Shown piece after piece: positions 36,738 through 42,427 of a stretch of DNA of 43,199 nucleotides (positions are counted from its first letter, which is position 1; the number at the start of each line of letters is the position of its first letter). The stretch is from Chloroflexota bacterium. GTDB lineage: Bacteria > Chloroflexota > Limnocylindria > Limnocylindrales > CSP1-4. Position numbers and translations under genes: made by a program. Where the stretch lies: positions 15,257-58,455 of the forward strand of contig PMIP01000076.1 of assembly GCA_003158295.1 (NCBI GenBank), in the 5' to 3' direction. Under the pieces are notes generated by a model. That model had not been told where the DNA came from. It searched no databases and saw only the letters and a program-made list of their open reading frames with translations.

Positions 36738-37166
36738 ATGAGCCTGGACGACCTCGCGATCGAGTATCGGGGCGAGCTGCCGACGGCGGAGGAGTTCGAG
36801 CGTCTCTTTCGGTCGAGCGGCTGGACCGAGGCGTTAGCCGTCCCTGCTGATCGGCTGGAAGCGGCACTTCCCAGCGCCTGGTACGCGGTCTGCGCACGTC
36901 GCGGTGGGGAGGCCGTAGGCACCGGCATCGTGCTCTCGGACGGGGTCCTGCATGCCCTGATCGTTGACGTGATCGTGATGCCGGAGATGCGCGGCCACGG
37001 CATTGGAACGGAGATCATGAGACGACTGATCGCCCGATGCCAGGAAGCTGGCGTGCTCCAAATCCAGCTCTTCAGCGCCCGCGGCAAGCGTGACTTCTAC
37101 GAACGCCTGGGCTTCGTGGCGCGCCCCGACGATGGGCCCGGCATGGAACTCGGCGGTCCGCGCTAG
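36738..37166 (+). CDS. GNAT family N-acetyltransferase
   Basis: A 142-residue acetyl-CoA-dependent acyltransferase. The coenzyme-binding segment VIVMPEMRGHGIGTEIMRRL (V-x-P-x-x-R-G-x-G-I-G/A) is intact, followed by FSARGKRDFYERLGF, the usual C-terminal motif. The acceptor is unknown. The ATG at 36738 fits the domain start; the frame is open further upstream but that part is not GNAT-like. Confidence 0.92.
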   Translation: MSLDDLAIEYRGELPTAEEFERLFRSSGWTEALAVPADRLEAALPSAWYAVCARRGGEAVGTGIVLSDGVLHALIVDVIVMPEMRGHGIGTEIMRRLIARCQEAGVLQIQLFSARGKRDFYERLGFVARPDDGPGMELGGPR

Positions 37167-38042: not shown

Positions 38043-39371
38043 CTAAGAGTTCGCGACCCTAGCCGCCAGGTCGGCCACGGGACTGAATACGAAGCGCTTC
38101 CCCACCTGGCGTTGCGCGAGCATCCCGCGCCGCTTGAGATCGAGTAGATCGGTGCGCGCCGATTGCGGCGTGACTCGATGGCTGGTGGAATGGGATCGGA
38201 CCGTGTATTCGGCGTCCGAATGGCGGAGCGCGTGCGTTAGCAGCGCCACCTGGCGGTGGTTCAGCGTGCTCTGCCTCAGCAATCCGACAGTCTGGTGAAC
38301 CTCCCGAATCTTGCGACGCAGGTACTCCAGCAACTCATCGATCGCACGCCTCATGACCGATAGCTCGTGGATGAGGAAGTAGGTGGCGTCGCGCTCGTCT
38401 GTTTCCGTGTACAGGAAGGACCGGGCGTACCGCGCGGGCGCGGCATGCAGGATTCGCGAGATCGAGACGTACTCGAACATCCAGTACCCGCTGTGGAGCA
38501 TGGACCAGTAGAAGACGGCCCGAGCGGTTCGGCCGTTGCCGTCCTCGAACGGATGGTCGTACGCCAGCCACAGATGCAGCAGGATCGCCCGAACGACCGG
38601 ATGGACGAACCCCTGGTCTGACTCCCCGTTGGCGAACCTGCACATCGCCTCCATTCGGCCCGGCAGCTGTTCGGCGGGCGGCGGCGTATGAACGCGAAGG
38701 CCCTCAGGGTCGAAGACGCTCACCCGGAGCTCGCCAGGCTGCTGGGGTCTTCCGGCGCTGGTCGGGTCGTCCAGCGTATGTTCGGTAAGGATTCGGTGGA
38801 GCTCATAGACCAGTGCCGGCGTCAGGGGCTGGGAGGCAAAGCCCGAGATCTTGGTCATTGCCCGGTAGTTGTTCAGGATCATCCGCTCGCTGCGGTCGCG
38901 GGGCGCTCGGCCGGAGCGGAGCATCTCCTTGGCGACGCGTCGGGTGGAGGTGGCGCCTTCGAGCTGGCTCGATGTGATCGCCTCCTCGATGAGCGAGCTG
39001 ACGAGGTATCGGCTCCGATCGGCCGGCTCGGGCACCTCTTCGCTCACTAGGATCTCACCCGCGCCGTGCTGGTCGATCCAGTGCAGGATGCTCAGGGTCT
39101 CGTCCGTCAGGCAGTAGTCGAACGGTTTGCCGGCGGGATCCTGCAGCGGAAAGGCTCGGGCCAGGTTGGCGCGAGCGTACTTGATGCCGAACCACCACTC
39201 CTCGACCGTGAGACCCTCTGGCGGCGTACGCCTGCGAAGGTCGTCCCAGTGTGGGTACTCACCATCAACAGTCGGCGAGGCGACAGCCTCAAAGATCTTG
39301 GGCAGACGCTCGTTCAGATCTATCCGCTCGAAGAGCTGCTCAAGGGTGGGAGCGGTCGCTGGGAGTCGCAA
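38043..39371 (-). CDS. Class II Fic-domain protein with C-terminal winged helix
   Basis: A protein of about 442 residues. The N-terminal module (about 1-110) is of the DUF4172 type, with GEYPHWDDLRRRTPPEG. It carries the inhibitory motif SSQLEG (S/T-x-x-x-E-G, near 135-139), placed N-terminal to the Fic core as in class II. The active-site motif is HPFEDGNGRTAR (near 272-283), complete, so AMP transfer to a hydroxyl of a target protein is expected. After a helical linker the last 70 residues look like a winged helix (HRQVALLTHALR, TPQSARTDLLDLKRRGML). TTG at 39371 is chosen: GAGG lies six bases upstream and family alignment starts here. Two palindromes lie upstream, which suggests autoregulation. 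Confidence 0.92.
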   Translation of the reverse strand: MRLPATAPTLEQLFERIDLNERLPKIFEAVASPTVDGEYPHWDDLRRRTPPEGLTVEEWWFGIKYARANLARAFPLQDPAGKPFDYCLTDETLSILHWIDQHGAGEILVSEEVPEPADRSRYLVSSLIEEAITSSQLEGATSTRRVAKEMLRSGRAPRDRSERMILNNYRAMTKISGFASQPLTPALVYELHRILTEHTLDDPTSAGRPQQPGELRVSVFDPEGLRVHTPPPAEQLPGRMEAMCRFANGESDQGFVHPVVRAILLHLWLAYDHPFEDGNGRTARAVFYWSMLHSGYWMFEYVSISRILHAAPARYARSFLYTETDERDATYFLIHELSVMRRAIDELLEYLRRKIREVHQTVGLLRQSTLNHRQVALLTHALRHSDAEYTVRSHSTSHRVTPQSARTDLLDLKRRGMLAQRQVGKRFVFSPVADLAARVANS

Positions 39372-39403
39372 GAGAGCCCTCGGTAGTGCGGGATCAGCAA
39401 AGG

Positions 39404-39432
39404 ATCGGCTAATAACACCAAAGTTAGCCGAT
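39404..39432 (-). promoter_or_regulatory. Palindromic operator 1 upstream of the Fic gene
   Basis: ATCGGCTAA, 11 bases, TTAGCCGAT: a perfect 9-base inverted repeat. A half-site-like GATCAGCAA precedes it at 39392. It starts 33 bases upstream of the Fic start codon, and on the minus strand it overlaps a possible -35/-10 pair, TTGCCG and TAACTT spaced by 17. Confidence 0.8.
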
Positions 39433-39452
39433 ATTGGCCCGATCGGCAAGAG

Positions 39453-39481
39453 ATCGGCTAAGAATGCAAGAGTTAGCCGAT
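39453..39481 (-). promoter_or_regulatory. Palindromic operator 2 upstream of the Fic gene
   Basis: The same ATCGGCTAA-11-TTAGCCGAT palindrome, 49 bases from the first centre to centre, again preceded by a half-site (GATCGGCAA at 39441). The 41-base units 39392-39432 and 39441-39481 agree at 33 positions, with both arms fully conserved. Confidence 0.8.
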
Positions 39482-39579: not shown

Positions 39580-39656
39580 TGGTGCCCCCAAGGGGATTCG
39601 AACCCCTGATCTCAACCTTGAAAGGGTCGTGTCCTAGGCCTCTAGACGATGGGGGC
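39580..39656 (-). tRNA. tRNA-Glu (anticodon TTC), CCA encoded
   Basis: On the minus strand the acceptor GCCCCCA (39656 onwards) pairs with TGGGGGC, the anticodon stem-loop is CGACC-CTTTCAA-GGTTG with anticodon TTC, and the T-arm is AGGGG-TTCGAAT-CCCCT. The discriminator A and an encoded CCA end the gene. All stems pair. The 3' terminal sequence recurs in repeat copy B. Confidence 0.97.
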
Positions 39657-41302: not shown

Positions 41303-42427
41303 TCAGCGACCGGCCGGTCCCCCGGCGCTCACGGACGGACTCCGGCCGCCCGGCCGGACAACCACCCGTGGCGCCACTTTGGCGGTCGAGGCCCGGATGA
41401 TCAGGCGCGTCTCCAGCGTCTTGTGCTCCGGCCGCTCGAGGTCCGGGCTGGCGATCATTCGGAGCAGCAGTCGAGCCGCCTCCTCGCCCTTCCGGCGAAT
41501 CGGCTGGTGCACGGTGGTCAGCGGCGGGTTCGAATGCGCCGCCACATCGAGGTCGTCGAAACCGACGATGCTGATCTCCTCGGGCACCCGCAGGCCCACT
41601 TCCCGAACGGCCCACATGACGCCGACGGCCATGACGTCGGACATGGCCAGGATCGCCGTCGGCCGCAGGCCGTCCTCCCAGATGCGGTGGAACGCGGCCA
41701 CGCCGCCATCGAAGGTGGCCGGCCCCACGACGATCCGCTCGTTGCCGAGCTTGACGCCGCCCAGCTCCAAACCCTGCCTGTAGCCGGTCAGGCGGCGCAA
41801 CGCAACCGTTTCTGTTGGGCCCGGTGCGTACTCGAACAGGTCGGGCGTGTCGGGTGGCTCGATGCCGATGACGGCGAATTGTCGATGCCCGAGCGAGAGC
41901 AGGTGCCTGGCCGCGGCTCGGGCGCCCACCTCGTCGTTCGATTCGACCGAACCGTGCTCGGGGAGCGCGCCGCTGTCGACGAGAACCATTGGCAGGCCCG
42001 CCCGCCTGATCTGCTCGATCTCAGGGCGGTCCTCCCCGAGGCTCACGGCCACGAATCCGTCCACCGTTGCGCGGCCGATCGCCCGGACCAACGAGCCGTG
42101 GAGCGGCGAGACGAAGAGGAGGCCGTAACCGGCCCCGCCGGCGGTGGCGGCGACGCCCGCGCACAACTCCGCGTAGAACGGGTTGGCGAACACGACGCTC
42201 AGCAGCTGCGGGGTGAGCAGCCCGATCGTCATGGTGTTCCTCTGGGTGAGCATCCGCGCCACGGGATGAGGCCGGTAGCCCAGATCGTCGGCCACCGCGC
42301 GGATCCTGGCCGCCGTAACCGCGTTGAGGCGCTCGGGGCTGTTGAAAGCGAACGAGACGGCGGTCTTGGACACGCCTGCCTCCTTCGCCACGTCGGCGAT
42401 CCGGGCGCGCCTGGTCCTGGCTTCCAC
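41303..42427 (-). CDS. LacI-family transcriptional regulator
   Basis: A 374-residue repressor. The N-terminal DNA-binding domain shows IADVAKEAGVSKTAVSFAFN and hinge helix RIRAVADDLGYRPHPVAR. The ligand-binding domain is periplasmic-binding-protein-like, with GLLTPQLLSVVFANPFYAEL, DGFVAVSLG and ISIVGFDDLDVAAHSNPPLTT. The last 20 residues are Arg/Pro/Gly-rich. GTG at 42427 follows AGGAAGGAC. It is divergent from the fumarylacetoacetate-hydrolase gene, which is a likely target; the inducer may be a sugar acid or a related compound, but this is inferred. Confidence 0.94.
   Translation of the reverse strand: MEARTRRARIADVAKEAGVSKTAVSFAFNSPERLNAVTAARIRAVADDLGYRPHPVARMLTQRNTMTIGLLTPQLLSVVFANPFYAELCAGVAATAGGAGYGLLFVSPLHGSLVRAIGRATVDGFVAVSLGEDRPEIEQIRRAGLPMVLVDSGALPEHGSVESNDEVGARAAARHLLSLGHRQFAVIGIEPPDTPDLFEYAPGPTETVALRRLTGYRQGLELGGVKLGNERIVVGPATFDGGVAAFHRIWEDGLRPTAILAMSDVMAVGVMWAVREVGLRVPEEISIVGFDDLDVAAHSNPPLTTVHQPIRRKGEEAARLLLRMIASPDLERPEHKTLETRLIIRASTAKVAPRVVVRPGGRSPSVSAGGPAGR

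Follow-up and report, generated by a model that had tools for sequence, protein, structure and literature searches.

A predicted stand-alone class II Fic AMP-transferase that probably represses its own gene through tandem operators matched to its winged helix

The locus described here very probably encodes a class II Fic AMP-transferase that stands alone and represses its own synthesis; a C-terminal winged helix would act on tandem operators in front of the gene, and an inhibitory helix would add a second restraint. A comparison of orthologues shows that the winged helix and the paired upstream sites have changed together, which makes it very probable that the enzyme represses the gene encoding it. 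To our knowledge, most winged-helix Fic proteins have no known DNA target. For the subfamily analyzed here, the DNA target can be read from sequence throughout, and a two-residue code predicts the operators of members not previously seen. The orthologues and their operators also form a naturally occurring collection of repressor-operator pairs that differ in specificity, and a readable code makes testable both the effect of cognate DNA on AMPylation and the purpose of an AMPylator that is self-repressed as well as self-inhibited. All coordinates refer to the window, meaning the whole stretch of 43,199 nucleotides that was analyzed, and the features of the locus are as follows.

38043-39371, minus strand: Fic AMP-transferase with C-terminal winged helix, 442 aa (Pfam Fic match, about 118 orthologues with aligned start, AlphaFold2 model)
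38076-38258, minus strand: predicted C-terminal winged-helix domain, residues 372-432, with recognition helix 402-414 (AlphaFold2 model; residues 402-403 covary with operator bases)
38163-38168, minus strand: codons of the specificity residues P402 and Q403 (top mutual-information columns for base p5 and bases p4p3)
38520-38555, minus strand: Fic catalytic motif HPFEDGNGRTAR, residues 273-284 (H273, D277, G278, N279, G280, R281 and R284 each 99-100% conserved in orthologues)
38955-38972, minus strand: inhibitory-helix motif SSQLEG, residues 134-139 (in orthologues, S134 99%, E138 98%, G139 100%)
39377-39381, minus strand: GAGGG, probable ribosome-binding site, 5 nt before TTG 39371 (read in the sequence)
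39392-39432, minus strand: operator unit 1, gene-proximal, with an exact dyad ATCGGCTAA-N11-TTAGCCGAT at 39404-39432 and a third half-site at 39392-39402 (11-bp direct repeat; the geometry recurs in orthologues)
39421-39449, minus strand: candidate weak promoter recognized by eye, TTGCCG-N17-TAACTT, which overlaps the operator (no match in a consensus scan)
39441-39481, minus strand: operator unit 2, gene-distal, with an exact dyad ATCGGCTAA-N11-TTAGCCGAT at 39453-39481 and a third half-site at 39441-39451 (units paired about 48-49 bp apart in several orthologues)

The Fic gene, its protein and its surroundings

The reading frame of the Fic gene stays open back to GTG 39512. A start at this codon was rejected: in the alignment, the orthologues start where TTG 39371 lies, with ATG, GTG or TTG in that column, and in several of them an in-frame stop codon occurs about 12-42 nt before it. 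Judging from these alignments, TTG 39371 is most likely the start codon, and with this probable start the operator sites are promoter sequence, upstream of the coding sequence. An earlier note on this DNA had given the range 38043-39481; the gene itself most likely runs from 39371 to 38043, so that the range comprises gene plus operator. The same note had raised the prospect of palindromes lying inside the coding sequence, and this is answered by the aligned start codon of the orthologues, which falls downstream of the sites.

The protein belongs to the Fic/Doc family, defined by a Fic domain carrying an HxFx(D/E)GNGRxxR motif, with a match to PF02661 of 3.8e-17 (63.3 bits against a Pfam cut-off of 24). 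It is predicted to be of class II, given an (S/T)xxxE(G/N) motif, here SSQLEG, that precedes the Fic core on the same polypeptide. Both this motif and the intact catalytic motif are present as first reported, and both are nearly invariant among orthologues. An AlphaFold2 model, built on only 8 sequences and with a mean pLDDT of 73, does not confirm the inhibitory helix, because residues 106-142 are of low confidence. For the C-terminus, for which the earlier note had claimed only a winged-helix-like region and proposed structure prediction, the model gives a fairly confident winged helix, consisting of helices 372-383, 391-398 and 402-414 and a beta hairpin at 418-431, with local pLDDT of about 77-93. 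The best Foldseek matches of the model include SoFic, CbFic2 and PDB entry 7xux.

As previously claimed, the Fic gene is not accompanied by a separate antitoxin gene, here over flanks of about 1.5 kb. Any one family of flanking ORFs is present at 6 of 120 loci at most, and a search of these flanks for a conserved partner gene returned none that recurs, at a resolution at which very small ORFs could escape. The orthologue is patchily distributed in its class, being found in 16 of 177 genomes. A tRNA-Glu (TTC) gene lies at 39580-39656, on the same strand as the Fic gene and about 100 nt upstream of the operator. A tRNA is also present in the flank at 8 of 127 orthologous loci and an integrase-like ORF near a few, which hints at occasional insertion beside tRNA genes; an integrase-like ORF was sought in the window and not found. 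Two further ORFs, flanking the locus, were recognized by eye, one for a LacI-type regulator at 41303-42427 (minus strand) and one for a GNAT acetyltransferase-like protein at 36740-37166 (plus strand), and no link to the Fic gene was seen for either.

Operator geometry and the specificity code

The two 41-nt operator units described in the earlier note were recovered at 39392-39432 and 39441-39481, spaced 49 nt and 80% identical to each other. Each contains an exact 9-N11-9 palindrome; chance alone would give 0.01 matches over the window, even if as many as 3 mismatches were tolerated. The element that had been called a half-site corresponds to a third copy of the dyad half-site, lying in direct repeat at a distance of one helical turn (11 bp). 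Across the 2.7-Mb genome, no further ATCGGCTAA-N11-TTAGCCGAT sites were found beyond these two. When a shorter pattern with 2 mismatches was used to search the same genome, other matches were no commoner than those of a reversed-pattern control, and thus no regulon is visible. Neither a consensus promoter nor a terminator was found between 39340 and 39600.

The geometry of these sites was analyzed across about 118 orthologues with 34-68% identity, some from genomes related to that of the window and others from further phyla, including records titled as Latescibacterota, Acidobacteria, Deltaproteobacteria, Dadabacteria, Akkermansia and Phycisphaerae; redundancy was limited only through the use of one genome per species in the source collections. 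In the first set of orthologues, perfect 6+6 dyads in the upstream region peak at a spacer of 11 (42 of 55 orthologues, versus 3.6 in shuffles). In the enlarged set, a perfect dyad with an 11-bp spacer is present upstream in 83 of 117 (other spacers, 12-16), whereas control windows inside the gene, downstream of it or further upstream, covering about 100-120 loci, contain 6-12 perfect dyads. A search for the palindrome upstream of Fic-winged-helix orthologues, as suggested at the outset, therefore finds its 11-bp-spacer geometry in most of them. With the threshold applied here, some 30% of orthologues have no perfect dyad, which is due in part to errors in assemblies or in start-site assignment, and the closest orthologue (L040, 68% identity) presents only degenerate units at -204 and -147, which were spotted by eye and then checked. 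A third half-site is enriched at 11 bp, as a direct repeat, both left and right of the dyads. Two units about 48-49 bp apart are seen in several orthologues, with a two-unit spacing that is variable overall. Promoters such as TTGACA-N17-TATACT (in orthologue L062) sit between the units and overlap both, and the gene-proximal unit of several orthologues contains the -10 hexamer.

The operator letters differ among orthologues (GGCTAA, TGCTAA, TACTAA, TACCAA, TATCAA, CGCAA and others). Numbering half-site bases outward from the inner end, so that CTAA at this locus reads p4 to p1, these differences follow two residues of the recognition helix. In counts that combine a curated first set and a blind second set, residue 402 corresponds to base p5, outside the core, with Tyr accompanied by A in 60 of 62 cases and Arg by G in 11 of 11. 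Residue 403 corresponds to bases p4p3, with Gln or Glu accompanied by CT (62 of 64), Asp by CC (9 of 9), Ala or Gly by TC (10 of 10) and Asn by GC (3 of 4). The rule was fixed from the first set before the second was fetched, and operators in the second set were called by geometry, not by the rule. The rules set beforehand covered Tyr, Arg, Pro, Gln/Glu, Ala (from two cases) and Asp (from one case); those for Gly, Asn and His403 were derived from the second set. The first-set rule also applied to the second set and to two viral contigs. No unambiguous p5 base goes with His402 or Asn402, and Pro402, the residue of the protein studied here, goes with G at p5 in both known cases, its own included, making it the weakest entry for this locus.

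A blind mutual-information analysis of 82 confident operators, omitting alignment columns with more than 25% gaps, placed the same two residues at the top, residue 402 for p5 (corrected MI 0.78) and residue 403 for p4p3 (1.17). The runner-up columns, residues 410 (0.49) and 407 (0.56), are also in the recognition helix, and the scan gave no clear partner residue for the outer bases p6 and p7. Shared ancestry was addressed with a tree built on residues 1-370 only, excluding the winged helix. Among independent pairs differing at residue 402, p5 differs in 12 of 15, compared with 32 of 1256 pairs that share residue 402 at matched distance. Among those differing at residue 403, p4p3 differ in 8 of 16, the remaining 8 being Q/E or A/G swaps. 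Correlating the residues of a binding domain with the bases of its sites is an established method (PMC5045206), and the covariation of operator bases with the protein's own residues 402 and 403 is strong evidence that the Fic protein recognizes its own operator through its own winged helix.

Three viral-classed contigs (L157, L158 and L159) encode orthologues with 46-51% identity; upstream sequence is available for two of them, each with the operator predicted from residues 402 and 403. Divergent members in which residue 403 is His, Pro or Met (L089, L102, L104 and L126) present the operator types TATAA, AAGAAA, AAGCAAA and TGTATAAG; with these further types, the code probably extends past the classes counted above.

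Proposed autorepression and its alternatives

In the proposed mechanism, the winged helix, through its recognition helix 402-414, would bind GGCTAA-type half-sites, probably as one dimer per CTAA-N11-TTAG dyad, with the third half-site, at a distance of one helical turn, occupied by an extra subunit. The two units would overlap or bracket the promoter, so that bound protein would block RNA polymerase and thereby keep its own level low, while the inhibitory helix (S134-E138) would additionally restrain the enzyme. We infer dimer binding, promoter occlusion and autorepression from the dyad geometry, the promoter overlap in orthologues and the precedent of CccR, detailed below. The proposal of the earlier note that the protein represses itself through these sites gains support from operator bases that track its own residues 402 and 403. 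The protein may act as a toxin or in defence, and keeping its expression low would then be important; a SoFic-like profile match and the patchy distribution are compatible with an accessory gene of this kind.

A further reading, put forward tentatively, is that of a one-gene, phylum-crossing module that holds toxin-like AMPylator, own inhibitor and own sequence-specific repressor in one chain, with operator binding and AMPylation allosterically coupled. If so, the trigger that frees the enzyme would also derepress its gene, or the reverse. Such coupling, which the earlier note had also suggested tentatively, has a precedent in CbFic2 (PMC10628234) and contrary evidence in CccR (PMC9755527). 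Rather unlikely is an arrangement in which operator binding mainly controls the enzyme, with DNA dimerizing the protein and switching AMPylation to deAMPylation or off, and autorepression as a second output. The retention of catalytic and inhibitory motifs alongside a DNA-reading helix in orthologues speaks for this arrangement, as does CbFic2 of Coxiella, which has a similar broad architecture, dimerizes on DNA and shows DNA-dependent (de)AMPylation (PMC10628234); the regulatory and toxic activities of CccR are, however, reported to be independent (PMC9755527), and with one operator region per genome only few Fic molecules could be held on DNA.

Covariation is informative about recognition and does not give the sign of regulation. 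Binding could hence activate rather than repress, or the two units, which exist with variable spacing, could form a bistable switch, but this is improbable given that the -10 hexamer within the gene-proximal unit in several orthologues is as expected of a repressor and that CccR represses (PMC9755527). Least probable is that the sites serve another regulator, a mobile-element end or an RNA stem, with the Fic winged helix acting otherwise: palindromes near tRNA genes can mark mobile elements and this gene is near a tRNA-Glu, but base identity tracks residues 402 and 403 of the Fic protein in a tree-independent set, a covariation on which the stem and element-end readings were rejected, no neighbour gene recurs and the sites occur upstream of the Fic gene only.

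Comparison with known systems

Autorepression, the preferred reading, has a close parallel in CccR of Yersinia pseudotuberculosis, a class II Fic AMPylator and autorepressor with a C-terminal winged helix (PMC9755527). CccR binds an inverted repeat near the -35/-10 elements of its own promoter, as established with EMSA, footprint and lacZ data, the lacZ signal being 3.3-fold up in the mutant (PMC9755527). PDB entry 7xux, which is probably CccR, has about 17% identity to the present protein in structural alignment. Common to both are the class II Fic motif and a winged helix reading the gene's own operator, as indicated here by covariation. The CccR operator is a single AGATAATCAT-N26-ATGATAATCT with 10-bp arms, whereas the present sites have 9-bp arms, an 11-bp spacer and tandem CTAA-N11-TTAG units with third half-sites; an operator of the CccR type (10-bp arms, 26-bp spacer) does not occur at this locus. 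CccR is also secreted by a T6SS, nothing of which was seen here. Among distant Fic paralogues of related genomes (L018-L032, 25-31% identity, with C-terminal DNA-binding-like regions), several have strong palindromes just upstream, including CCGCTAATCAT-N23-ATGATTAGCGG in L024, which resembles the CccR operator, CGGTAATA-N8-TATTACCG in L023 and L027, and palindromes with N11 in L031 and L021. Autoregulation may be general in Fic-winged-helix proteins.

The best structural neighbour is the anti-phage AMPylator SoFic (PDB 3eqx and 3zcn; Foldseek 2.7e-10), which likewise combines Fic and a C-terminal winged helix, and the PADLOC SoFic model matches residues 124-435 with 5.2e-38. Assignment to the SoFic equivalog (NF046030) was rejected, at 27.4 bits against an NCBIfam cut-off of 550, and a Pfam search of the Fic protein for DUF4172 returned no match, which sets it apart from SoFic. 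EcSofic has a downstream antitoxin, AS1 (PMC12249575), whereas no small neighbour recurs here. DNA binding by SoFic had not yet been shown as of the 2023 paper on CbFic2 of Coxiella burnetii (PDB 8cil), itself a class II Fic protein whose winged helix binds DNA, with DNA changing its (de)AMPylation (PMC10628234). CbFic2, with about 20% identity to the present protein in structural alignment, differs from it in having a DUF4172 N-terminal domain and no known specific operator.

A two-gene class I Fic toxin-antitoxin system (FicTA) does not describe the locus, as the inhibitory motif is in the same chain and no neighbour recurs. In toxin-antitoxin autoregulation, as with the AbiEi winged-helix antitoxin on inverted repeats, a toxin-like gene is held low via promoter palindromes; in contrast to AbiEi-type systems, DNA binding, inhibition and catalysis are here predicted in one polypeptide, with no separate antitoxin gene. 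Neither the CTAA-N11-TTAG operator nor the specificity code appeared in the open-access full texts searched, among which the papers on CccR, CbFic2 and EcSofic were the relevant ones. That a Fic protein with a winged helix can repress its own gene is known from CccR, and what is new here is a variant of wide distribution whose operators have a different geometry and whose specificity can be read as a code.
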